Shown here: positions 23,371-36,432 of the stretch, one piece after another | How the letters are laid out: every line of letters starts with the position of its first letter | Numbering within the stretch: the stretch's first letter is position 1 | NCBI GenBank assembly: GCA_938048455.1 | Contig: CALIUY010000004.1 | Span: forward strand, 1-64,000 | From: an uncultured Desulfobacterales bacterium | Lineage (GTDB): Bacteria > Desulfobacterota > Desulfobacteria > Desulfobacterales > SpSt-501 | DNA: 64,000 nt | Direction of reading: 5' to 3' | Translations under genes and position numbers: made by a program | Notes under the pieces: generated by a model | The model's database searches: none | What the model was told of the DNA's origin: nothing | Seen by the model: only the letters and a program-made list of their open reading frames with translations

Positions 23371-24678
23371 TTATCGGCCCATCATCTCCGGCAAAAGGAG
23401 GGCGAGGCCGGGAAAGGCGGTCAGGACGATCGCCGCCACCAGGACGGCCGCAAGAAAGGGCAGCGTTCCTTTGAAAATCTCGCCCGGAGGAACGGGCGCG
23501 GCGACGCCGGCGATCGCGTAGACGTTCAGACCCACCGGCGGGGTGATCAGGCCGGCCTCCATCATGAGCACGCAGAAGACGCCGAACCAGATGGGGGAGA
23601 TGCCCAGCTCCGCGACGAGCGGAAAGACCACCGGCAGGGTCAGCACCATCATGGAAACCGAGTCGAGAAAGCAGCCGAGGAAAACATAAAGCAAGGTGAG
23701 CACGGCGAGCAGCTCCCAGGGGGAAAGCCCCCATAGGGAAATCGCCGTCGAGAGTCGGAAGGGGAGCGTGGAAAGCGCAAGAAACGTGCTGAAGACCGTC
23801 GCCCCGGCGACCAGAAAGAGAACCATCACCGTCACCCGGCCCGCTTCCTCGAGCGCGGCGGCGATCGCCGCCCACGTGAGCCGGCGCCTGCAGGCAAGAA
23901 GCAAGAGAAGCCCGAGCGCCCCCACACCGCCGGCCTCGGTGGGGTTGATCCGGCCCGAGTAGATTCCTCCCATGACCAGCAGGAAGAGGAGCGCCGTCTG
24001 CCAGATCCCCTTGGTGGCGCGCAGTTTTTCCCGTGCCGTGGAAGGCGGCAGACGGGCGGGGGCGTGGCGGGGGAACAGAAGACTCCAGACGAACACGACG
24101 GCGCCGTAAGCCGCGCAGAGCAGCCCGCCGGGGAGGATCCCGGCGACGAGGAGCTTTCCGATCGACTGCTCGGTCAGCATGCCGTAGACGACGAATCCGA
24201 GGCTCGGGGGGATGAGAAAGCTCAAGGTTCCGCCGGCGGCCACGACCCCCGTGGCCAGTCGCGGCGAATACCCGAAGCGCCTCATCTCGGGCAGAGCGAC
24301 CGCCCCCATCGCCGCCGCCGCGGCGACCGAGGAGCCGCAGACGGCGGCGAATCCGGCACTGGCGCCGAGCGTGGCGAGCGCCAATCCGCCGGGGAGGCGC
24401 CGCAGCCAGACATCGAAACTCGCGTAGAGCTCGCGGGTCACTCCGGCGGTCCCGGCCAGATGGCCCATGAACACGAAGAGGGGAATGAGGGTAAAGGGGT
24501 AATGGGCCGCCGTTTCGTAGAGCACGCGCGCGGGAACCGGCAGCGCCGCTTCCGGCCCGGAGAGCACCCAGATCCCGCCCAGCCCGACCCCCATCAGGAC
24601 AAAGGCGATCGGCATCCCGGTGGGCAAAAGCAGGAGAATCGCCGCGAGGCCCGCTGCACCGGCCAGAGTCGGCTCCAT
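23371..24678 (-). CDS. dctM: TRAP transporter large permease DctM
   Basis: The 435-residue protein has about 12-13 hydrophobic segments with the DctM pattern: LLPTGMPIAFVLMGVGL at the start, then GSSVAAAAAMGAVALPEMRR, IPPSLGFVVYG and a final GLITPPVGLNVYAIAG. The ATG at 24678 follows the dctQ stop by one base, so coupling is tight. It forms the sodium-dependent transport channel of a TRAP system. It is the last gene of dctPQM. The substrate is probably an organic acid, but family membership alone does not tell. Confidence 0.93.
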   Translation of the reverse strand: MEPTLAGAAGLAAILLLLPTGMPIAFVLMGVGLGGIWVLSGPEAALPVPARVLYETAAHYPFTLIPLFVFMGHLAGTAGVTRELYASFDVWLRRLPGGLALATLGASAGFAAVCGSSVAAAAAMGAVALPEMRRFGYSPRLATGVVAAGGTLSFLIPPSLGFVVYGMLTEQSIGKLLVAGILPGGLLCAAYGAVVFVWSLLFPRHAPARLPPSTAREKLRATKGIWQTALLFLLVMGGIYSGRINPTEAGGVGALGLLLLLACRRRLTWAAIAAALEEAGRVTVMVLFLVAGATVFSTFLALSTLPFRLSTAISLWGLSPWELLAVLTLLYVFLGCFLDSVSMMVLTLPVVFPLVAELGISPIWFGVFCVLMMEAGLITPPVGLNVYAIAGVAAPVPPGEIFKGTLPFLAAVLVAAIVLTAFPGLALLLPEMMGR

Positions 24679-24679
24679 G

Positions 24680-25213
24680 TCAAGGCCTCCGGCCGAGGCG
24701 GCGCGCCGCCGCGAGGCCTTCCCGCACGAGCACGCCGGCGAGCAGCAGGCCGCCGGCGGCCACGAGCAGACGGAACGGCCCGAGCGGAATGCGCAGCTGA
24801 TCGGAAACCGCCTTGTCGGAAAGCCCCTGCCTGAAGCCCTCGCCAACCACCACCGCCGTCACGGCGAGCGTCGCCAGAACGGTGAAGAGCCGCACCCCTT
24901 CCCGGAGGCGGGACGGAAGGCGTTCGAGAACGAACCCCACGGCGACGTGACCCCTCATCTGCTGGGTGTGAGCGGCGCCGAGCAGCACACAGGCGGCGAG
25001 CAGAAACTCGGAAAGCTCGAAGGCCCCGGGCAGGGGTCGGCCGAGAAACAGACGGCCGGCGACGTCCGCGCCGGTGAGGAAGATGAGGGGCAACACGCAA
25101 AGCGCGGCCACCCGGCCCGCCGCGGCGCTCGTACGGCGGACGGCGCCCTCGAAGACTCCGGCCGCCCCCGGCGGGGGATCTTCGGCCCCTTTGGGATCTC
25201 CCCGCGGATTCAC
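24680..25213 (-). CDS. dctQ: TRAP transporter small permease DctQ
   Basis: I choose the GTG at 25213, which overlaps the dctP stop as GTGA and gives 177 residues, the usual DctQ length. An in-frame ATG at 25267 would add 18 residues inside dctP. Four hydrophobic segments are visible, with the family pattern FLTGADVAGRLFLGRPLPGAFELSE in the first half and RLPSRLREGVRLF in the middle. It pairs with DctM to form the membrane complex. Confidence 0.88.
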   Translation of the reverse strand: MNPRGDPKGAEDPPPGAAGVFEGAVRRTSAAAGRVAALCVLPLIFLTGADVAGRLFLGRPLPGAFELSEFLLAACVLLGAAHTQQMRGHVAVGFVLERLPSRLREGVRLFTVLATLAVTAVVVGEGFRQGLSDKAVSDQLRIPLGPFRLLVAAGGLLLAGVLVREGLAAARRLGRRP

Positions 25214-26289
25214 CTTGCGCGCAGCTCGGGGGGGCAGGCCACGACCTCGACGTTGCGCCGGGCGCATTCTTCATCCATCACGGTGACGGCCCGCCGTCCC
25301 GGAAGCCCGCGGGCCTCGAGTTCCTCCGCCCAGCGGCGGGTCACCTCCTGAAACCGCTCGAACCAGCGGTCGGCCTCCGGCCGGGAAAGCTCGACCGTGC
25401 GCACACCGGCGCGCTCGATCTCCGCCATCATGCGGGGGTATTCGCTGCGGGTCAGACCTCCCGTGCTGCGGAAGGGGTTGGAGGCGACCTCGACGATCGT
25501 CCGGCGCTGGTTTTCATCCAGTCGTTCCCAGCTCCGGCGATTCATCACCACCCCCTCGGAGACACAGCCGAAGGTCGTGATCAATCCGTAGCGCAGCACC
25601 TCCTGGAGTTTGAAGGCGAGAATCACGGGAGGGCAAGTGACGATGCCGTCGATCGTCCCGCTCTCGAGCGCGAGGTACACGTCCCCGGGGGGCATGAAGA
25701 TCGGCTCCCCACCGAGGGCGCGGATGTATTGGCTCTGGTGCCCGCCGGGCGTGCGGATCTTCATCCCCCGCAGGTCCTCCATCCGGCCGACGGGGCGGCG
25801 GGTCCAGAGGAACGACTGGATGCAGCCGTTCAGCTCGATCACCTGCACGTCCCGGAATTCCTCCCGCAGCACGCGCTCGTAGACCGCACGGCCGATATCG
25901 ACGGCCAGATCCTTGCCGTCCACCCAGGCCGCAAGCGAGAGCACATCGCTCAAGGGGAAACGGCCGGGAGTGAAGGTGGCGGTGAAGTAGCCCATGTCGG
26001 AGAGCCCGTTTTTGACGATGTCGTAGTGCGCCGGGGCCTTTCCGAGGGCCCCGCCGGCGAAGAGCTGGTAGTCGAGCGTCTCACCGCTTCGGCGCCGGAT
26101 CTGTTCGAGCATGGGCGTCCAGACGGTCGTCGTCTCGCGGCTAAGGGGCGGATGCCAGGTGCTGAAGCGGATCTTTTCCGCCCCGGCGGCTTCCGCTCTA
26201 GGGAAGAGAACGCCTGCGCCGAGGGCGGCCCCCCCCCAGAAGAGTTGCTGTAGAAAACGCCTGCGGTTCGAATCGCATGCCCAGCACAT
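25210..26289 (-). CDS. dctP: TRAP transporter substrate-binding protein DctP
   Basis: The 359-residue periplasmic binding protein has a twin-arginine-like leader (NRRRFLQQLFWGGAALGAG), suggesting export in folded form. The mature part has the DctP hallmarks: IRFSTWHPPLSRET, the GLSDMGYFTATFTPGRFPL segment, LRGMKIRTPGG with the ligand-binding arginine, and ALESGTIDGIVTCP. Other residues suggest a carboxylate ligand, as in most of the family. GAGGGGAG precedes the ATG. Confidence 0.93.
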   Translation of the reverse strand: MCWACDSNRRRFLQQLFWGGAALGAGVLFPRAEAAGAEKIRFSTWHPPLSRETTTVWTPMLEQIRRRSGETLDYQLFAGGALGKAPAHYDIVKNGLSDMGYFTATFTPGRFPLSDVLSLAAWVDGKDLAVDIGRAVYERVLREEFRDVQVIELNGCIQSFLWTRRPVGRMEDLRGMKIRTPGGHQSQYIRALGGEPIFMPPGDVYLALESGTIDGIVTCPPVILAFKLQEVLRYGLITTFGCVSEGVVMNRRSWERLDENQRRTIVEVASNPFRSTGGLTRSEYPRMMAEIERAGVRTVELSRPEADRWFERFQEVTRRWAEELEARGLPGRRAVTVMDEECARRNVEVVACPPELRAR

Positions 26290-26967: not shown

Positions 26968-27342
26968 CTACTCGTAGCCGAGCTCGATCAGGCGCTCCTC
27001 GTCGATCCCCAGAAAGTGGGCCACCTCGTGCACCACGGTGATCTCGATTTCCTCCTCGAGTTCCTCACGATCGGAGCACATCTCCTCGAGCGGTTTTTTG
27101 AAGATGAAGATCGTGTCCGGGTAGAGCGGCGGGTCGGTCGCCGAACGCTCGCTCAAGGGGATCCCGGAATAGACCCCGAGCGGGGGATCCTCGGGGGAAA
27201 ACCCCAACTCTTCCAGAAGAGCGGGGTCGGGGCGATCCTGGACGGTGATGACCACATTGTCGAGATGGCGCCGGATCTCCTCCGGAATGCGCTGGATCGC
27301 CCGCTGCACGATGCGCTCGAATTCGGCGCGGCTGAGCTTCAT
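26968..27342 (-). CDS. Zincin-like metallopeptidase family protein
   Basis: A 124-residue acidic protein with an HExxH zinc motif (HEVAH, residues 105-109) followed by FLGIDEERL, the pattern of the small zincin-like proteins grouped in PF06262. The N-terminal EFERIVQRAIQRIPEEI and the middle LGVYSGIPLSERS also fit that family. Whether it is an active protease is not established for the family. No signal peptide is seen, so it is cytoplasmic. It has its own promoter at 27363-27391 and may lead a transcript into the TRAP genes. Confidence 0.88.
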   Translation of the reverse strand: MKLSRAEFERIVQRAIQRIPEEIRRHLDNVVITVQDRPDPALLEELGFSPEDPPLGVYSGIPLSERSATDPPLYPDTIFIFKKPLEEMCSDREELEEEIEITVVHEVAHFLGIDEERLIELGYE

Positions 27343-27362
27343 CGATCCCCCCCCTCGCAGGG

Positions 27363-27391
27363 ATGATAAAAAACAATTCGTGGAAACTCAA
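27363..27391 (-). promoter_or_regulatory. Promoter of the zincin gene
   Basis: On the minus strand TTGAGT (27386-27391), a 17-base spacer and TATCAT (27363-27368), about 20 bases from the ATG. It is back to back with the plus-strand promoter at 27412. Confidence 0.6.
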
Positions 27392-27411
27392 CCCGCCGCC
27401 GGCGACCGCCG

Positions 27412-27440
27412 TTGGAATGCCCCGGCCGTCGTGTTAGGAT
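27412..27440 (+). promoter_or_regulatory. Promoter of the PHP-like membrane protein gene
   Basis: TTGGAA (27412-27417), a 17-base spacer and TAGGAT (27435-27440), giving a leader of about 75 bases. The leader contains GAGGAGC just after the -10, far from the start codon. Confidence 0.55.
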
Positions 27441-27522
27441 TGGAGGAGCAGGCACAACCCGCAACCGACTTGTCTTCCGAAGACGGCCGTGAAACACGGG
27501 GCCGCAGCGGACGATTTCGCGG

Positions 27523-30500
27523 ATGGCGCGCACGACCTCCATTCCCCCGTTTTTCTTCGATCGCAAGGATCACGAACTCATCCGCATCATCAACGAATCC
27601 CTCGCGGCCTCCTTCGCCTCCCGCAAGCGGTATTTCCCCCACTTCCACCCCAACGGGATCAAGCAGCTCGCCGAAAGCAAAGGATTGCGCACGGCCTACG
27701 CCGTGGCCTACCTCTTGAGCTCCCTCGAGATCGGCGGGGTGGAAGAGCGCTTGAGCGCCTTGCGGATGCTGCGCATGGAGGTGATCGACACGGCCGAGGG
27801 CCCCCTGCCCCGCAACACGGCCCGGGTGCTGCTGGAGATCATGAAACACCTGGTGCGGGCCCGCGGGGACGAACGTCGCCAGCTCGAACTCGCCCACGAT
27901 TTCCGCATGGCGGCCTCCGGCAAGCCGCGTTTCATCCGCCGCATGCTGCGGCGGTACCACCTGCTCGAGATGCCCGAGGAGTGGAACCAAATCGCCTTCG
28001 ACGACCACGTCCACGACGTGAACACGAAGGGCCGCAAATCCTCCTCGCACCTGATCATGGACGCCTGGATCAAGGGCATCCGCCGTCTGCGGGTGATCCA
28101 CTACTATTACATCGAGCCGCGCTTCGCCGCCGAACTCTTCGAAGCCTCGCGGATTCTGGAAATCGACGTCCGCATCGGAATCGAATATTACGCGCGCTTC
28201 CGCGACCGCTACGTGCAGCTCATCTGGGTCCCTCGGGGGTTCGCCGACAGCCAGGCCTTTCTCTGCTTTCTCGAGGAGCCGGCCGTTTCGCGCCTGATGG
28301 AGGCCGGGCGGAAAGCCGCCCGCTGGCAACAGCGCTCGGTGATGGAATTGCTCGCGAAGTTCAACGCCGTGCATCGCCTGGAGATCGAGCGGCGCCTGGG
28401 CATCGCGCTGCCCCCGATCGCGGAGTCGCAGTTCCTCGCCTTCGTCGGCATCGGCCAGAAATCGAAGCTGCACCTCTCCAAGTTCATCGAGGACCAGATC
28501 GTGCTCGCCCTCCACCGTCGGGTGACGGAGCTGCGCCGCGAGCTCCCCGCCGCATCCCCCGAGCGCCGCGCCGAGATCGAGCGCTGGACGGCGGAAGTGA
28601 ACGGCCTCGACCTGGAGGCCTTCGTCGACGGCTTCCTCGATCCCGGGCGGAACCCGGAAATCCGCTACCCCGAGCAACCCTCCACCGACCCCGAAACCCC
28701 CGAGCTCTTGTGTCTCGGCCCGCAGGAGATCCTCGCCCGTCTCGCCGCCCTCCATTCGGGCTACCGCATCACGCTCAACCTGACGCACCTCACGGCGGCC
28801 GACGTGCTCGAGCTGCTCTACGACTGCCAGGGGATGATCACCCGGCTCGAGCTCTTCAACCTCAAGGATTACACCGCGCGCAAGACGGCTCACCTCGGGG
28901 AAATCGGGCGGCTGATGCTGGCGTTGAACGAGGGAAGTGCGATTCACCTGAAGCAGGTGATCCGGGAGATCATCGCCGGGCTGTCCATTGCGAAAGACCC
29001 CCGGAGCCTCGAGCAGGCCGAAAAGCTGCGCGGGGTCCTCTACGACATCGAAAGCTTCACCTCGTTTTATGCCGGTCGCTTTCTGCGAGCGCGCATCGGG
29101 AGCGATTCGACCGGCCGGTCGCCCCGCCTTCCCGGCATGGGGATCGCCGTGCTGGAAACCCTCTCCCCGCGGGCGCGCCGCGAAGTGTTGAAGCCCGACC
29201 CGGCGCAGGCGCGCATGATCCTGCCGGTGCGGATGACCGTCTACAAGACGGTGATTCACCTGCCGCCCTCGGGGACCTCTCCCCGCTTCCGCGAAGCGCC
29301 CGGCGCATCAAACGGCCTGTCGGGGAGGATCTTCGGCGGAACCCGGATGGTGCGCTGGCAAGTGGAGAGCACGATGACGCGCCTCTCCGAGCCGGGAAAC
29401 CTCGTCACCCTGGGCGGCTACCGGCGCTCGATCGACAACGGCCTGCGGCTCGAGGAGGGGACCGATAGCGCCCCGTCTCGCCTTCCTCCCGCCTCCTGCC
29501 TGAACAGTCGCCTGAAAAATGCGCTCAAAGTGCTCTGCGGCTTCGTTCCGGCCTTCGCCACCTTCTTTCTCACCCAGCCCTGGTGGGTCCTCGCCTGGGG
29601 GGGAGCGGTGATCTGGTTTGCGATCACCGGCTTGCGCAACATCCTGCAATCCGTGCTGGGCGGGGGGGGGCTGCGGCGTTCGCCGCTTCTCAACTGGAGC
29701 GACTACGTGAGCTGGAGCCGGCTGACGGACTCGCTGATGTTCACGGGCTTCTCGGTCCCGCTCCTCGATTTCTTCGTCAAGACCTTGCTCCTCGACCGCG
29801 GGCTGGGCATCAACACCGAGACCCATCCGCTCGCGCTCTACAGCGGCATGGCCCTGGTCAACGGGGTCTACCTCTCGAGCCACAACCTCTTCCGCGGCCT
29901 TCCGCGGACGGCGGTGATCGGCAATTTCTTCCGCACCGTGCTCTCGATCCCGATCGCCTTCGGCGTCAACGGCGCAGCGGCCATGCTGCTCGCCTCTTTC
30001 GGGGTCGCCTCCCCGGCCGTAGAGCTTCAGAAATGGGCGGCCATCATCTCGAAGACGGCTTCGGACACGGTGGCCGCCTTCATCGAGGGCCTGGCCGACC
30101 GCCACCGCAACATCCTGCTGCGCCTGCGCGATCTGCGCGTCAAGTTCGCCCAGCTCTTCGAGACCTATGCGCAGCTCGAGCTGGTCTACCCCGACGTGGA
30201 GACCTACGCCGTGCTGCAGCCGGAGCGGGCCTCCGACCGTCGCTCCGCGGGCGAGGCGCGCGACCTGGAGCGCATCCTCATGATCCACGCCCTCGACCTG
30301 CTCTACTTTTGGATGGTGCAACCGCGGGGCCGGGATGCGCTGCGGCGTTTCCTCAAGACGCTGAGCGAGGACGAGCGATCGGTCTTTCTGAGCACCCAGT
30401 TCACCCTGCAGCGTTGCCGCGAGATCAGCCAGCTTTTCTTGGACGGCATCCTGGGGGACAATTTTCCCCGACCGCTTTCGTTCTACCTCGCCCGCTTCGG

Positions 30501-30645
30501 CGAGTATCTGGAAGAAGTGAAGCGGCTGGCTTTCGCGGAAAGCCCTCCCGGACCGGCGGCGGGCGAAGGCCGCAGGGAGGGGCGATCTCCCGTCTTGAGC
30601 TGTCCTCTGACCCCCTCCCCGCGCCGGGAGCCTCCGGAGCGTTGA
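27523..30645 (+). CDS. Large membrane protein with degenerate PHP-like N-terminal domain
   Basis: I do not recognise a named family for this 1040-residue protein. Residues 160-175 (DDHVHDVNTKGRKSS) resemble PHP phosphoesterase motif I (HxH), GIEY at 219-222 resembles motif II, and RLELFN at 441-446 resembles the later ExxN motif. These are resemblances, and some metal ligands seem to be missing. Five or so hydrophobic segments follow (about 668-705, 738-757, 770-790, 800-828), then a helical cytoplasmic tail. No signal peptide is present. The ATG is fixed by an in-frame stop at 27490, with no Shine-Dalgarno. Predicted role: a membrane-bound phosphoesterase-like or sensor protein, unproven. 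Confidence 0.6.
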   Translation: MARTTSIPPFFFDRKDHELIRIINESLAASFASRKRYFPHFHPNGIKQLAESKGLRTAYAVAYLLSSLEIGGVEERLSALRMLRMEVIDTAEGPLPRNTARVLLEIMKHLVRARGDERRQLELAHDFRMAASGKPRFIRRMLRRYHLLEMPEEWNQIAFDDHVHDVNTKGRKSSSHLIMDAWIKGIRRLRVIHYYYIEPRFAAELFEASRILEIDVRIGIEYYARFRDRYVQLIWVPRGFADSQAFLCFLEEPAVSRLMEAGRKAARWQQRSVMELLAKFNAVHRLEIERRLGIALPPIAESQFLAFVGIGQKSKLHLSKFIEDQIVLALHRRVTELRRELPAASPERRAEIERWTAEVNGLDLEAFVDGFLDPGRNPEIRYPEQPSTDPETPELLCLGPQEILARLAALHSGYRITLNLTHLTAADVLELLYDCQGMITRLELFNLKDYTARKTAHLGEIGRLMLALNEGSAIHLKQVIREIIAGLSIAKDPRSLEQAEKLRGVLYDIESFTSFYAGRFLRARIGSDSTGRSPRLPGMGIAVLETLSPRARREVLKPDPAQARMILPVRMTVYKTVIHLPPSGTSPRFREAPGASNGLSGRIFGGTRMVRWQVESTMTRLSEPGNLVTLGGYRRSIDNGLRLEEGTDSAPSRLPPASCLNSRLKNALKVLCGFVPAFATFFLTQPWWVLAWGGAVIWFAITGLRNILQSVLGGGGLRRSPLLNWSDYVSWSRLTDSLMFTGFSVPLLDFFVKTLLLDRGLGINTETHPLALYSGMALVNGVYLSSHNLFRGLPRTAVIGNFFRTVLSIPIAFGVNGAAAMLLASFGVASPAVELQKWAAIISKTASDTVAAFIEGLADRHRNILLRLRDLRVKFAQLFETYAQLELVYPDVETYAVLQPERASDRRSAGEARDLERILMIHALDLLYFWMVQPRGRDALRRFLKTLSEDERSVFLSTQFTLQRCREISQLFLDGILGDNFPRPLSFYLARFGEYLEEVKRLAFAESPPGPAAGEGRREGRSPVLSCPLTPSPRREPPER

Positions 30646-30663
30646 CCGGCCGGAGACCCGGGC

Positions 30664-31110
30664 TCAACGGGGAGGGCGTCTGGACCCGCGTCGGGAGCGG
30701 AGCGCGCGTTGTTCGCGCTCAAGCTCGGCAAGCAGCCGCCGGAGCGTCCAGGTTTCCGAAACGGGGGTCAGCGCGGCCCAGAGAATCTCCCCCCCGCCCT
30801 GCTTGCGCCACAGGCTCATCAGGCGGATCAATCCCGCCTGGGGGATCCCGGAAACGATTGCGGCGCGCGGGAGCTCGGAGGAACGACCCGCCCCGGTGCC
30901 GTCGGGCAGCGCGAAAAGCGCCCCCACGAGCTCTCCGGCCCGTTCCGTTTCGACCCACACCCGGGGGATCTGCGCCAGCCCAGCGGCGGCGGCCGCGGCA
31001 TGAAAGCGGCGCACGCCATCCTCCGTGAAGCCGCAGAGCAGGAATTTCGCCGCCCCGTAAAGGGGCGTTTCCTCCGCTTCGAGCCTCGAGAAGGTCGCCT
31101 CTTCGCCCAA
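30664..31110 (-). CDS. DUF3783-like protein
   Basis: A 148-residue protein with an N-terminal FLLCGFTEDGVRRFHAAA segment, a middle RAAIVSGIPQAGLIRL and a C-terminal TPVSETWTLRRLLAELERE. This pattern resembles DUF3783, whose function is unknown. The family normally has a segment near the C-terminus ending in a leucine-rich, Glu/Arg-rich helix, which is seen here. It sits 21 bases downstream of a lipoprotein gene on the same strand. Its 3' end faces the large membrane protein gene. Confidence 0.6.
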   Translation of the reverse strand: MGEEATFSRLEAEETPLYGAAKFLLCGFTEDGVRRFHAAAAAAGLAQIPRVWVETERAGELVGALFALPDGTGAGRSSELPRAAIVSGIPQAGLIRLMSLWRKQGGGEILWAALTPVSETWTLRRLLAELEREQRALRSRRGSRRPPR

Positions 31111-31763: not shown

Positions 31764-32681
31764 TCAGTCGGGAAAACGGATCCGGTCCCCCACGGCGGCG
31801 AAACGGACGCTTTCGCCGAGCGCGCCGCGCAGGCGGCAGGCCTCGACCCTCCCCGTGCAGTGCAGCGGAACGATTTGGCCCGGCGCTTCCCGGGCGAGGG
31901 CCGCGAGGGTGCGCTCGAGGCGCGATTCGGAAACGCCGTGGAGATGCAAACCGCCCACGATCCCGGCGATCCGGCGGGCTCCGTATTGCCGCCGCACCTG
32001 GTCCAAAAGCCCGGCGAGGCCGGCATGGCAGCAGCCGGTGAGCAGCACCAAGCCCGCCGGGCCCAGATCGGCGACCAGGCCGAGATCGTCCTCGATTTCG
32101 TCTTCGACCCGCGCCCCCGGCTCATCGCGCAGGAAGCCCTCGGGTTTTTCCCAGACCCTGCGCGGGGCGATCGCCCCCGTGGTCCGGAGCCCCGGCAACA
32201 AGCGGAAGGGGCGCTCGGCTTCGATCAACTCCACGCCGGCGGCCCGAATTTCCGCCGGCTCCAGCGCGGAGCCGATCTCGCGCCGCCGCGGCCGGGCGCG
32301 CATGCGCCTCCCCCAGAGGCGGGGATGGCAGACCACCCGCAGCGGCCGCTCCGCCGCCGTCAGCCAGGCCCTGAGCCCGCCGGTGTGATCGTAATGGCCG
32401 TGACTGAGGACGACGTCGCGCACGCCGCCGGGGTCGATCCGCAGGGCGCGCAGGTTGTGCATCAAGACCTCGCCGCTTTGCCCGGTGTCGAAGAGCAGCC
32501 GGCGCTCGCCGAAATCGCCCTCCGCCTGCAGGAGGATCGAAAGCCCGTGTTCCGCGCGCAGGCCGCGGATCTCGACCCGGTTGTCGACCAGGACCGTGAG
32601 CGCCAGTCGCCGCAGATGCCCGGTTCCGGCCTTCCGCTCCCGGGATCCGGCGGTGTTCGAAGGCGGCCTCTCCGATTTCAA
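31764..32681 (-). CDS. Metallo-beta-lactamase-fold hydrolase
   Basis: The 305-residue protein has the MBL zinc motif SHGHYDHTGG, an early LFDTGQSGEVLMHN, a later GCCHAG and the final GGLHLHG segment. The pattern EHGLSILLQ plus LFDTGQS is typical of the group annotated as 7,8-dihydropterin-6-methyl-4-aminobenzene-phosphate synthase-like or phosphoribosyl cyclic phosphodiesterase-like. The true substrate is not known. The four-base overlap with the upstream PEP/pyruvate-binding gene (ATGA) shows that the two are translated together. Confidence 0.8.
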   Translation of the reverse strand: MKSERPPSNTAGSRERKAGTGHLRRLALTVLVDNRVEIRGLRAEHGLSILLQAEGDFGERRLLFDTGQSGEVLMHNLRALRIDPGGVRDVVLSHGHYDHTGGLRAWLTAAERPLRVVCHPRLWGRRMRARPRRREIGSALEPAEIRAAGVELIEAERPFRLLPGLRTTGAIAPRRVWEKPEGFLRDEPGARVEDEIEDDLGLVADLGPAGLVLLTGCCHAGLAGLLDQVRRQYGARRIAGIVGGLHLHGVSESRLERTLAALAREAPGQIVPLHCTGRVEACRLRGALGESVRFAAVGDRIRFPD

Positions 32682-35647
32682 GCGCTTTGCCCTTCCGGAT
32701 CTTCCGGCAACAGGATGACCCCCTCGCCCCGCAGGCCGTCGATCCCAATCTCGATCGGCCGTCTCCAGCGCAGGTGCAGCAGCGCCTTCGATTCATAAAT
32801 CGTCTCGGCGTGGCGGCGCAGCTTTTCCCAACGGATGAAGGCCTTCGACCCGCAGGGAACGGTCAGGCAGCCGATGTTGAGGGAGGTGACGTTCTGGAAG
32901 AAGTGGGTCCCTTGAGCGGGCTCGACGTTGAACCCCGGCAGTCCCACCTCGACCAGAAGCCGCACCCCGGAAATCTGCGCCCAGCTGACCCCGATGCCCA
33001 TACGGGGGTCGGTCGATCCCCAGCGGCCGAATCCGACAAGGACATAGGGGCGACGCTCCTGCGTCAGCCGCCGGTTCGCCTCGCCGATTTCGCGGGCGAT
33101 TTCCCGGGTTCGGGAAACCTCGAAGGTCTCGGGCTTGACACAGAGAAGGTCGTAGACCCCCTGCACCCAGCCGTTTCCATGGGCGAGGTGCGAGTAGCAG
33201 AAAGCGCGCTCCCGGCACCCCTCGGGAATCGCCACCCGCTCCCAGCGGTTGCGCGAGGCCATGGGCCGCAGCTGCAGGGGATAAAAGACGGGTCGGCCTT
33301 CCTCGGGCAGCTCGCAGGCGAATTCGATCTCGACCGGAACGCGCATGGAGCGCTCGCAGACGGTCAGCAGGGTGGAGAGGATTTCCCCGAAGCGCAGCCG
33401 GGCGTCGCGCAGGACCTTGTGAAAAGTCACGACCCGCGGGCCCTCGTAGAAGAAGCTGTCCACGAGCAATCCGCTGTCGGATTGGTAGACCGAGGCCACT
33501 TTCGCAAGCACCCCGTCGGCCTCCGCCACCGACAGCGGCAGCAGGCGCAGCCGCTCCAGGGTGGCCGCATCCCGTGGAGCGCGGATCGGCGCCATGTCCA
33601 GGGCGTAAAAATGCTTCTGGGTGAAATAGAGCCAGTCGCGCATGTCGGCGAACTGCGGCAGAAGCAGGGGGTAACGCGGGCAGAAGCGCACGATCGCCCC
33701 GCCTTCGACCACCGTCTTGCCGAGGCCCAGGGCGATTTGGGCGACGCCGTCTTCCGGCTTCATGGACGCCAGGGGATAGAAATTCCGGGACTGGGCGACT
33801 CCGGAAAACGTCGGGTAGAACCAGTCGCCGTGGCGGCGGCCGGCGAGCGTTTGCACGACGACGGACATGCGCTCGTCTTCCAAGCGATAGCCCGTCTGCC
33901 GAAAGTAGGCGCGGGGGTTTTCGCCGAAGGTCGAGGCCCAAACCAGGCGGACCGCGGCGAGCAGCGAGGCGAGGCGCTCCTCGATCGACCCCTCGCTGTT
34001 CGGCAGCATGTAGGTCGCATAAATGCCCGCCAGCGGCAGGTTGTGGGAATCTTCGAGAATCGAGGAGGAGCGCACGGCGAGCGGCTCGTGGACCGCCTGC
34101 AGCCAGGCCCGAAGATCCTCGACGAGCTGCGGCCGCAGCTTCCCCTCGAGAAAACGGCGCTTCAGCTCCGCGGCCTCGAGCCCGCCCGCCAAGGCGGGTT
34201 CCCCGAGGCGGTTGTCTTCCAGGAAGTGCACGAATTCGTTGGAGCAGACGACGAGTGTCGGCGGAATCTGGATCGCCATCTCGGGAAACTGCGCACGGAA
34301 TTCCAGGCGCGAGAGAAGATAGCGCAAAAACCCGATGCCGCGCGCCTTGCCGCCGAGCGATCCCTCGCCCCAGCGCATGAACTGCAGCTCCTGCGGGTTG
34401 CGGCCGGGCAGGTAGCGCGTGATGATGTCGCTTTGCTTCTCGTAGAGGACAGTCTCGATGACCCGGATGAGAAAAGCCCGCAGCTCCTCGGCATCTCGAA
34501 AATCCTCGACCCGCTTGGGGTAGAGCTGCTCGGCGATCCGGATCTCGGTGCGGGCCATCATCCAGTGGGAAAAATGCTGCTTTTCGGCGTGATGGAGCAG
34601 ACAGGCGGCCGGCGCCTCGCGCAGCCGGTCGAGCAGCTCGCGGGGGTTCCCGGCGCGGGCGATCTCCCGGCCGTCGGGCAGCCGGAAGATGAAATCCCCG
34701 AAGCCCATGGTCTCCCGCAAAAACCGCTGCAGGTCTTCCATGAGCCCCTTGGAGTTCTTGTCGATGAAGTAGGCCTGCAGGGCCTCGGCCCGGCCGCGGT
34801 TTTGCTCCGGCTCCGCCGACTGGATGCAGATCGGCAGGTCGGGCATGTCGCGGCGCAGCATGCGGACCAGAGCGAAGCCGGCCTCGTCGTCCAGCCGCCC
34901 TCCGCGGCGGAAGCGCACATCGGTGATCACCCCCAGCATGTAGGGGCGAAAGCGTCGGTAGACATCCACGGCCTCCTCGAAGCTCGAAGCCAGAAGCACC
35001 TTGGCCCGGGAGCGCATGCGCAGCTGGCGGTGGAAATGGTTGAGCCCCTCGTCGATCAGCCGCCGCGTGAGATCCATGATCGCCGTGTAGATCACCGGAA
35101 GGAACGTGGAGACATGGGCCACGGAATCCTCGACGAGCAGCACGACCCGCACGCCCCCGATCCGGGTGTCCGACTCGGCGTTCATCCGGTCCTCGAGCGA
35201 CTTGACGATCGCGACGAGCAATGTGGGATCGTTCTGCCAGAGAAAGAGCCGATCGACTCCCGGCAGCGACTCTTTTTCCGCGGGCCGCGTAAGGACCGCG
35301 GGGTCGGTCACGAGCAACACCACCGGAAGATCCGGCCGCAGGGCCTTCACGCGGGGGGCCAAGTCGAGAGCGAGGTCCGTCTCCTCGTGCACCACGGCGA
35401 GCACGAGGTCGACCGCCGTGTTGCCGATGACCTCGAGAGCGCGCTCGATGCTCGAGACCTTCCGGATCAGGGGGACCGTGGAGAGTCCGCGGTCCGCATA
35501 CTGCTGCCAGATGCGCTCCTCGAGCGTGCCGTCCTCCTCGATGATGTAGGCGTCGTAAACGCTCGACACCAAGAGAATCTCGCGGATGCGCCGCGTCATC
35601 AGCGAGCGGAACATGTCGAAGCGATGCTGCAGGCCGTCGATGTCCAT
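32678..35647 (-). CDS. PEP/pyruvate-binding (PPDK-N) protein with N-terminal receiver domains
   Basis: I place the start at 35647, giving 989 residues. Residues 23-155 form a degenerate receiver-like domain without acidic pocket. Residues 167-315 look like a complete receiver: E173-D174, phospho-acceptor D243 in GVITDVRF, S277 and K297. A PPDK N-terminal ATP-grasp domain follows from about 425 (GSLGGKARGIGFL, then AVRSSSILEDS). The swivelling phosphohistidine domain and PEP-binding barrel of full PEP synthase are not seen. Such truncated kinases are known in this group of bacteria. It may phosphorylate a partner or sense PEP/ATP under receiver control. Confidence 0.75.
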   Translation of the reverse strand: MDIDGLQHRFDMFRSLMTRRIREILLVSSVYDAYIIEEDGTLEERIWQQYADRGLSTVPLIRKVSSIERALEVIGNTAVDLVLAVVHEETDLALDLAPRVKALRPDLPVVLLVTDPAVLTRPAEKESLPGVDRLFLWQNDPTLLVAIVKSLEDRMNAESDTRIGGVRVVLLVEDSVAHVSTFLPVIYTAIMDLTRRLIDEGLNHFHRQLRMRSRAKVLLASSFEEAVDVYRRFRPYMLGVITDVRFRRGGRLDDEAGFALVRMLRRDMPDLPICIQSAEPEQNRGRAEALQAYFIDKNSKGLMEDLQRFLRETMGFGDFIFRLPDGREIARAGNPRELLDRLREAPAACLLHHAEKQHFSHWMMARTEIRIAEQLYPKRVEDFRDAEELRAFLIRVIETVLYEKQSDIITRYLPGRNPQELQFMRWGEGSLGGKARGIGFLRYLLSRLEFRAQFPEMAIQIPPTLVVCSNEFVHFLEDNRLGEPALAGGLEAAELKRRFLEGKLRPQLVEDLRAWLQAVHEPLAVRSSSILEDSHNLPLAGIYATYMLPNSEGSIEERLASLLAAVRLVWASTFGENPRAYFRQTGYRLEDERMSVVVQTLAGRRHGDWFYPTFSGVAQSRNFYPLASMKPEDGVAQIALGLGKTVVEGGAIVRFCPRYPLLLPQFADMRDWLYFTQKHFYALDMAPIRAPRDAATLERLRLLPLSVAEADGVLAKVASVYQSDSGLLVDSFFYEGPRVVTFHKVLRDARLRFGEILSTLLTVCERSMRVPVEIEFACELPEEGRPVFYPLQLRPMASRNRWERVAIPEGCRERAFCYSHLAHGNGWVQGVYDLLCVKPETFEVSRTREIAREIGEANRRLTQERRPYVLVGFGRWGSTDPRMGIGVSWAQISGVRLLVEVGLPGFNVEPAQGTHFFQNVTSLNIGCLTVPCGSKAFIRWEKLRRHAETIYESKALLHLRWRRPIEIGIDGLRGEGVILLPEDPEGQSA

Positions 35648-36016
35648 CGCCAACCTTTCTTCCTCATCCAGGGAACGCGGGAAGCACGGGGAGGGGCCGG
35701 CGGCCAATATAGACGGCGGCATCCGGTCGTGGCAAGGCTCGCTTCCGGAAGCCGGCGGCGCAAGACGCACGCCCCGCCCGGCCCCCGGCAACGCGCCGGG
35801 GCGTTTCTCCCCACAGGGGGAAAAACGCCCCGGACCGGAGTCCCTCCGGAGGCCAGGGGCTCCTCGGCGGATCCGGAAGAAAAATGTACGATTCCAAACG
35901 GTTCTTTTCTGCCCGCGCTTGCGGCGTCGCCGGGCATGAATCTTGAGTAAGAATCCAGCGCAGCCGCTTTGCAGGACCATCGACACGCATTCACGAATTC
36001 GAAAAGGAGAACGCGC
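35648..36016. other. Intergenic region between the PPDK-N gene and the Cys-rich gene
   Basis: These 369 bases contain no convincing gene. They hold a large GC-rich hairpin (35796-35833). A plausible promoter for either flanking gene could not be picked; the genes are divergent, so both must start here. The stretch 35880-35950 is relatively AT-rich and the best place to look. Confidence 0.5.
35796..35833. other. Long hairpin upstream of the PPDK-N gene
   Basis: Arms CCGGGGCGTTT (35796-35806) and AAACGCCCCGG (35823-35833) pair perfectly. An inner CCCC/GGGG extension leaves a small loop. No U-tract follows on either strand. On the minus strand it lies about 150 bases upstream of the start codon, where it could act as a leader element. 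Confidence 0.55.
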
Positions 36017-36367
36017 ATGCATCCCGACACGATCCGCAACGCCGCTCCCTTGGCCGCGGTCGGCCCCGCGGAGCAGGAGGTCATTGAAACCCTTTTGCGG
36101 CAAAGCCTGTGCGCCAACTGCAGGCATCAACTCGACTGCTCGTTTCTCGCGAGGACGCAGGTTCCGATCCTCGTCTGCGAGCTCTACGCCTGTGGGATCC
36201 CGGAGGCGCGCCGGCTGCGCGTGATCCGGACGTCCCCTCTTCCGGCGGACGCCGCCCCGCGAGGCGAAGAAGCCCCGGCCGGCCTCTGCCTCAACTGCGA
36301 AAATCGAACCGACTGCAGGCTGCCGAAGTCCGCCGGCGGGGTCTGGAGTTGCGGGGAATACCGTTGA
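36017..36367 (+). CDS. Cysteine-rich protein with repeated CxxC-type motifs
   Basis: The 116-residue protein has an AAGGAGA ribosome site before the ATG. Two similar cysteine clusters are visible: CANCRHQLDCSF (residues 32-42) and CLNCENRTDCRLP in the C-terminal part, plus CELYACG and CGEY. The repetition suggests two metal-binding knuckles, either zinc or Fe-S. There is no signal peptide. I do not recognise the family. It lies just upstream of the dehydrogenase, but that gene has its own promoter, so a functional link is not shown. Confidence 0.7.
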   Translation: MHPDTIRNAAPLAAVGPAEQEVIETLLRQSLCANCRHQLDCSFLARTQVPILVCELYACGIPEARRLRVIRTSPLPADAAPRGEEAPAGLCLNCENRTDCRLPKSAGGVWSCGEYR

Positions 36368-36379
36368 GGAGCGGACGCC

Positions 36380-36396
36380 GCCGGCCCGGAGCCGGC
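36380..36396 (+). terminator. Weak terminator after the Cys-rich gene
   Basis: GCCGGC arms (36380-36385, 36391-36396) with a five-base loop, followed after CGCGC by TTTTGCCTTTT. The stem is short, and the T-rich part overlaps the -35 of the next promoter. Confidence 0.4.
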
Positions 36397-36403
36397 CGCG
36401 CTT

Positions 36404-36432
36404 TTGCCTTTTGGCCCGCAAGAGGATAGAGT
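36404..36432 (+). promoter_or_regulatory. Promoter of the dehydrogenase gene
   Basis: TTGCCT (36404-36409), a 17-base spacer and TAGAGT (36427-36432). The leader is about 30 bases, with GGAGGAG in it. Confidence 0.45.

Follow-up and report, generated by a model that had tools for sequence, protein, structure and literature searches.

The 1040-residue protein described here represents an unannotated family in which a retooled, RNase AM-like PHP domain is joined to an uncharacterised membrane domain. Its gene lies in a 64,000-nucleotide stretch of DNA from an uncultured Desulfobacterales bacterium (the window). The product would be an inner-membrane protein of four parts: a helical domain at the N-terminus, a cytosolic PHP domain resembling RNase AM, a membrane domain with a probable six helices, and a helical tail in the cytosol. 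The gene and the predicted parts of its product are as follows:

27523-30645, + strand: the whole gene, 1040 amino acids, from the open reading frame and its translation
27559-27957, + strand: N-terminal all-helical domain, residues 13-145, from helices of the AlphaFold2 model, with no match identified
27988-29382, + strand: variant PHP domain, residues 156-620, with a helical insertion at 243-371, from Foldseek and VIA, and from hhalign to RNase AM for residues 155-325
28249-28635, + strand: the helical insertion, residues 243-371, from AlphaFold2 helices, with H317 aligned to H143 of the RNase AM insertion
29506-30090, + strand: membrane domain, residues 662-856, probably six helices with both ends cytosolic, from hydropathy, model helices and loop charges
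30091-30537, + strand: helical cytosolic tail, residues 857-1005, from the models

The gene, its relatives and its surroundings

The 1040-residue open reading frame is a real gene, and a search of its own genome found it in single copy. Comparison with a related locus (L021) showed purifying selection in the 27523-30645 frame (dS 0.54, dN 0.12), so the other large open reading frames that overlap it need not be genes. Relatives were detected in 27 of 58 related genomes, its own counted, two of these matches being weak and short (E 4e-7 and 5e-8). A pattern scan of genome contigs returned at least 592 stretches, at least 440 of which encode a relative, and the best 80 of these were retained. 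Judged by their record titles, these come from Desulfobacterales, Syntrophales and further deltaproteobacterial groups, and cultured carriers include Desulfatitalea alkaliphila, Desulfosarcina widdelii, Desulfatibacillum alkenivorans, Desulfocicer vacuolatum and Desulfamplus magnetovallimortis; Desulfatibacillum belongs to the Desulfobacterales, phylum Thermodesulfobacteriota. In a phylum-wide draw, 23 of 247 genomes matched, its own among them. The survey covers this phylum. The most distant relatives (L131-L133, 28-30% identity) contain both the PHP half and the membrane half, with the HVHD, E-x-x-N and GMG motifs.

No named family covers the protein in the sequence libraries searched, in keeping with the original prediction, which had recognised no characterised family with this order of parts. 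Pfam and NCBIfam gave no match to the window protein at E up to 10; this includes the Pfam PHP model (PF02811), and seven relatives, three of them distant, likewise had no PHP match. Sequence searches of the PDB returned nothing meaningful, PADLOC gave a single chance-level match (E 0.066), no relatives were found on plasmids or viral contigs, and Rfam had no match within the window. Among the titles and abstract openings of the papers listed on PHP domains and membrane proteins, which included few subscription journals, none described such an architecture.

Two genes, both on the opposite strand, flank this one:

26968-27342, - strand: Zincin_1 metallopeptidase-like gene, upstream and divergent, from a Pfam match
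30664-31110, - strand: DUF3783 gene, downstream and convergent, from a Pfam match

From this arrangement we infer that the gene is transcribed alone. The original prediction had also given it its own promoter, for which a sigma-70 scan of 27250-30900 offered no support: no site was found on the + strand, and the one site detected lies on the - strand. A comparison of all open reading frames of at least 80 amino acids flanking 81 loci showed no family common to more than 5 loci within 3 kb (some flanks were short); in wider flanks, neighbour families were shared with up to 13 other loci. No conserved neighbour gene pointing to a pathway was found across the loci compared. The host genome separately encodes an RNase AM-type protein in which the nine metal ligands are complete, and the PHP-membrane protein is therefore not its replacement. 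Elsewhere in the window, a long protein at 32678-36421 (- strand) carries a PPDK_N ATP-binding domain by Pfam, preceded by what looks, by eye, like a response-regulator receiver, and 23371-26289 (- strand) has the look of a TRAP-type transporter set, with a DctP solute-binding gene by Pfam and membrane parts by eye.

A PHP fold with an altered metal site

An AlphaFold2 model of the full protein, built from 72 aligned sequences, had a mean pLDDT of 82.8 and a pTM of 0.82. Its strands at 158-163 (which holds HVH), 188-194, 215-226, 229-237, 414-419, 441-446 and 522-526 alternate with helices. In a Foldseek comparison with the PDB, BAD_1165 (3e0f, E 2.3e-5) came top, followed by RNase AM of V. 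cholerae (9etk, 1.5e-4) and by Cv1693 (2yb1, 1.2e-3); PHP entries were matched with a probability of 1.00. By VIA-align, model residues 156-616 superimposed on BAD_1165 with Z 18.2 (rmsd 3.0, 255 residues aligned), and the values were Z 17.1 for Cv1693 (rmsd 3.2, 259 residues) and Z 16.9 for RNase AM (rmsd 3.7, 262 residues). Z was 16.9-18.2 for the four entries that belong with BAD_1165, Cv1693 and RNase AM, 11.0-12.3 for polymerase entries with a PHP domain, and 6.3 for the best non-PHP row. The top five Foldseek rows and the top 21 VIA rows are PHP proteins or polymerases with a PHP domain, the PHP content of the polymerase rows being in part our assumption.

Profile comparison gave a result in the same direction for the first part of the domain. 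With hhalign, the family profile (106 proteins, residues 150-640) aligned to 31 RNase AM-type proteins over residues 155-325 (P 3.4e-4), and the reversed, N-terminal-domain and membrane-half controls gave P 0.32, 0.20 and 0.47. A smaller, 98-row profile gave P 6.4e-4, with corresponding controls at 0.29, 0.25 and 0.81. The second half of the domain did not align to RNase AM by sequence in the 98-row set (P 0.38, with the reversed control better at 0.056). This failure, together with the silence of Pfam, NCBIfam and the PDB sequence searches, is what could be said for a chance likeness of motifs in a domain that is not PHP. Such a reading is already contradicted by the VIA scores of up to Z 18, the Foldseek probability and a significant hhalign match whose controls are not significant, and we regard it as highly improbable. 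On the strength of the model, the fold of residues 156-620 is taken as PHP. The original prediction, which had placed a PHP-like barrel at residues 130-460 and named structure prediction as its test, was thus correct about the barrel, which is present in the model, and wrong about its extent, which is about 156-620.

Among proteins of known structure, RNase AM (rnm, formerly yciV; E. coli and V. cholerae; 7ug9, 9etk) shares with the family a PHP barrel with an insertion domain, the HxH motif, GVE in place of GIE, and an aligned insertion histidine. RNase AM differs in having about 290 amino acids, no membrane domain and all nine ligands, against four here; its crystal contains three Mn (PMC9410882). 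The family adds an N-terminal domain, a fused membrane domain and a tail. The best structural matches, BAD_1165 (3e0f, 3o0f) and Cv1693 (2yb1), align over 255-259 residues with Z 17.1-18.2, but their chains have only 284-287 residues, compared with 1040 here. By their titles, BAD_1165 is a putative metal-dependent phosphoesterase and Cv1693 an amidohydrolase whose structure contains Mn, AMP and phosphate.

The PHP consensus for nine ligands and three metals is given as H H D/H H E H C/H D/N H (PMC3666897). In the RNase AM crystal, as described in PMC9410882, the three Mn are held by H13/E72/D255, E72/H83/H198 and D20/H45/H257, and H15 occupies position 2 of the consensus (PMC3666897). None of the nine ligands varied among the 31 RNase AM-type proteins compared (E. 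coli rnm plus 30 loci, which were the best 30 matches and not a random draw; 30 of 30 passed the selection pattern applied to them); R201, which binds sulfate in the E. coli enzyme, did vary.

Family counts refer to 106 distinct proteins, the window protein included, that were left after 11 of 117 rows had been dropped as the same protein, and no HVHD filter was applied. Other sets were used with selection: the proteins added to make the 98-row set were chosen by a pattern containing HVHD, which left out 14 of 45 loci, some of them lacking the second His; a 71-locus alignment (A2) was chosen by FDDHVHD, which inflates its conservation near 159-165; and an earlier alignment (A1) held 19 of 20 loci, L010 being left out. 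Nine other loci from the scan behind A2 had HVH in every case.

In the alignment, DDHVHD-KGRKS falls on DLHSH-SDG of RNase AM, GIE221 on GVE72, and H317 on H143 of the insertion. The motifs are:

28006-28014, + strand: HVH, residues 162-164, PHP ligand positions 1 and 2, aligned with RNase AM H13/H15; H162 in 106/106 and H164 in 100/106
28177-28185, + strand: GIE, residues 219-221, with E221 at ligand position 5, aligned with RNase AM E72; Glu in 101/106
28849-28860, + strand: ELFN, residues 443-446, at the end of strand 441-446; E443 and N446 in 106/106
29098-29112, + strand: GSDST, residues 526-530, replacing GSDFH of RNase AM; D528 (position 8) in 95/106 and T530 (position 9, His in RNase AM) in 94/106

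The register of N419, D528 and T530 follows strand order and the VIA range, and for the latter two also the GSD-x motif, and is not significant by sequence; the placement of D528 and T530 on D255 and H257 is thus structural. The HxH, GIE and ExxN patterns of the original prediction lie where it had put them, and their high retention over 106 relatives argues that they are not chance. Its inventory had missed GSDST, a likely PHP motif near the end of the barrel.

By this register the window protein keeps four of the nine ligands, H162, H164, E221 and D528 (positions 7-9, D528 among them, being placed by structure), which bears out the description of the site as degenerate. The four occur together in 91 of 106 family proteins, and at least one is missing in the other 15; the HxH on the first strand is present in the window protein and in 100 of 106, and only H162 is universal among the four. 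The remaining positions hold K169 (99/106), Y194 (98/106), Q232 (51/106, His in 6), N419 (82/106) and T530 (94/106), and no conserved His occurs at 193-196, where Y194 holds the ligand position. K169 aligns with D20 of RNase AM. Since five of nine ligands are replaced and the D20 position is Lys, a standard three-metal phosphoesterase appears unlikely from the alignment.

Losses among the four kept ligands include Ser at 221 in four loci (L063, L075, L082, L084), Ala at 528 in a distant subfamily, and Tyr at 164 with Ser or Asn at 528 in six copies from one genus (g119 of family f95). This genus (L116-L121, L124-L127, L134) has two or three copies in 4 of 6 genomes drawn. One kind of copy has HVY with Ser or Asn for D528, and the other, often present as a second copy in the same genome, has HVH intact (L124-L127); a third copy in one genome (L134 in G244) has lost both E221 and D528. 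A split of roles between copies is possible.

Conservation extends well beyond the ligands. H162, D160, D165, G170, K172, D180, K184, E204, E443, N446, N469, M539 and G540 are present in 106 of 106 proteins and R171 in 105. In the insertion, H317 is conserved in 105 of 106 and its counterpart H143 in 31 of 31 RNase AM-type proteins, where it forms part of an R-x-H (R141, H143, both 31/31); the aligned residue 315 here is Lys, not a conserved Arg. Judged from the alignment, the invariant non-ligand residues argue for a working pocket rather than decay.

These residues also bear on a purely structural role, of the kind proposed for the PHP domain of E. coli DNA polymerase III alpha, in which the fold would serve as a platform on which the helical and membrane parts, or a partner, assemble. 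That domain (2hnh; VIA Z 12.1) likewise combines a PHP fold with replacement of five of nine ligands, the same number as here, and according to PMC3666897 it is thought inactive and a structural role has been proposed for it; the window protein resembles such Pol III-type variants in its incomplete ligand set, and some family members have lost further ligands. The same source describes the PolC PHP of G. kaustophilus as inactive despite a nearly intact site. The polymerase domain differs in that other ligands are lost (its first is R10, whereas HxH is intact here) and in its polymerase part and lack of a membrane domain; the window protein has no fusion to a C-family polymerase and has the membrane domain instead. 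Against a platform stand the non-ligand residues beside the motif that are invariant in 106 of 106 (D160, D165, G170, K172, D180, K184), an argument limited by the observation, in PMC3666897, that residues neighbouring the ligands of PHP domains tend to be better conserved than the ligands themselves. We consider a purely structural role distinctly unlikely.

The membrane domain

Hydropathy averaged over 72 sequences and two models place membrane helices at 662-684, 688-714, 731-760, 769-791 and 795-825, which are clear, and a sixth fits the first half of a long helix that begins at 831. The mean number of Lys plus Arg is 2.6 and 2.0 in the predicted cytosolic loops and 0.7, 0.7 and 0.1 in the predicted periplasmic loops, a distribution that fits six helices with both ends in the cytosol, which is the probable topology. 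The five or so segments after 665 and the helical tail of the original prediction agree with this, the tail reaching to about residue 1005.

Modelled alone (pLDDT 87.5, pTM 0.78), the membrane half matched nothing in the PDB by Foldseek at E <= 0.001, the best value being 0.079, and its VIA scores stayed below Z 8, the highest of them, 7.2, belonging to the tail. The predicted domain thus resembles no recognised PDB fold, and null matches of this kind do not prove a new one. A likeness of the membrane part to SpecificRecomb (PF10136), which we had presumed by eye, was rejected: Pfam gave no match, and hhalign of A2 with one PF10136 member gave P 0.14. A SpecificRecomb protein (L137) was seen in 1 of 30 related genomes.

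The membrane domain was constantly fused to the PHP half in every case examined. A search of 247 genomes of the phylum with the membrane domain only returned 29 places, of which 28 lie in frames of 954-1234 amino acids already found by the full-length profile, and the PHP half is present in all 28; the 29th is a 30-position match inside a 67-residue frame. Invariant or nearly invariant polar residues occur in the predicted helices (N706, Q709, S744, N780, H787, N788, R804, S843, K844, D848, E855, D859), which suggests a role beyond anchoring.

Possible functions

The lost ligands incline us towards a sensor or a non-canonical enzyme. Our preferred reading, held tentatively, is that the rebuilt PHP pocket binds a phosphorylated ligand and that binding controls or serves the membrane domain. 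The PHP domain would retain its fold, the insertion His and the H-H-E-D set that forms a single one of the three metal sites, with the other five ligands replaced. H162, D165, G170, R171, K172, K184, H317, E443 and N446, each conserved in at least 105 of 106 proteins, may line one pocket, which would accommodate no more than one metal together with a phosphorylated small molecule or nucleotide end. Binding there would act on the fused membrane domain in signalling or transport. Counting against this reading, the remaining metal site is not universal, as the 15 relatives with an incomplete set indicate, and an active enzyme of unusual chemistry would account for the invariant residues as well.

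Such an enzyme would be a membrane-bound phosphoesterase using one- or two-metal chemistry, with Lys and Arg standing in for lost metals; its substrate, for instance polyprenyl phosphate or a lipid head group, would be associated with the membrane. It could draw on H162 and K172 (106/106) and R171 (105/106), and on one distant relative, L131, whose gene begins 3 bases after the end of a GDPD glycerophosphodiesterase gene (L131:5425-6192). That neighbour is found at only 1 of 3 distant loci, however, the other two having different ones, and at least one of the four kept ligands is missing in 15 of 106 relatives. In addition, PMC9410882 uses the D20A variant of RNase AM as its catalytically dead control, and the aligned position here is Lys in 99 of 106 proteins. 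Non-canonical hydrolysis therefore seems to us rather improbable, and we rank it below ligand binding coupled to the membrane domain and above a purely structural role.

A more specific version of ligand binding is that the RNase AM-type fold has been rebuilt as a sensor of 5′-phosphorylated nucleotides or RNA ends, gating or driving an undescribed six-helix channel or transporter in Thermodesulfobacteriota. We consider this unlikely in its full detail; if true, it would define a new class of ligand-controlled bacterial membrane protein. This membrane family, conserved among sulfate reducers and their relatives, has no model in the annotation libraries searched. Its systematically altered metal site makes it a natural case in which to ask how a three-metal phosphoesterase becomes something else.
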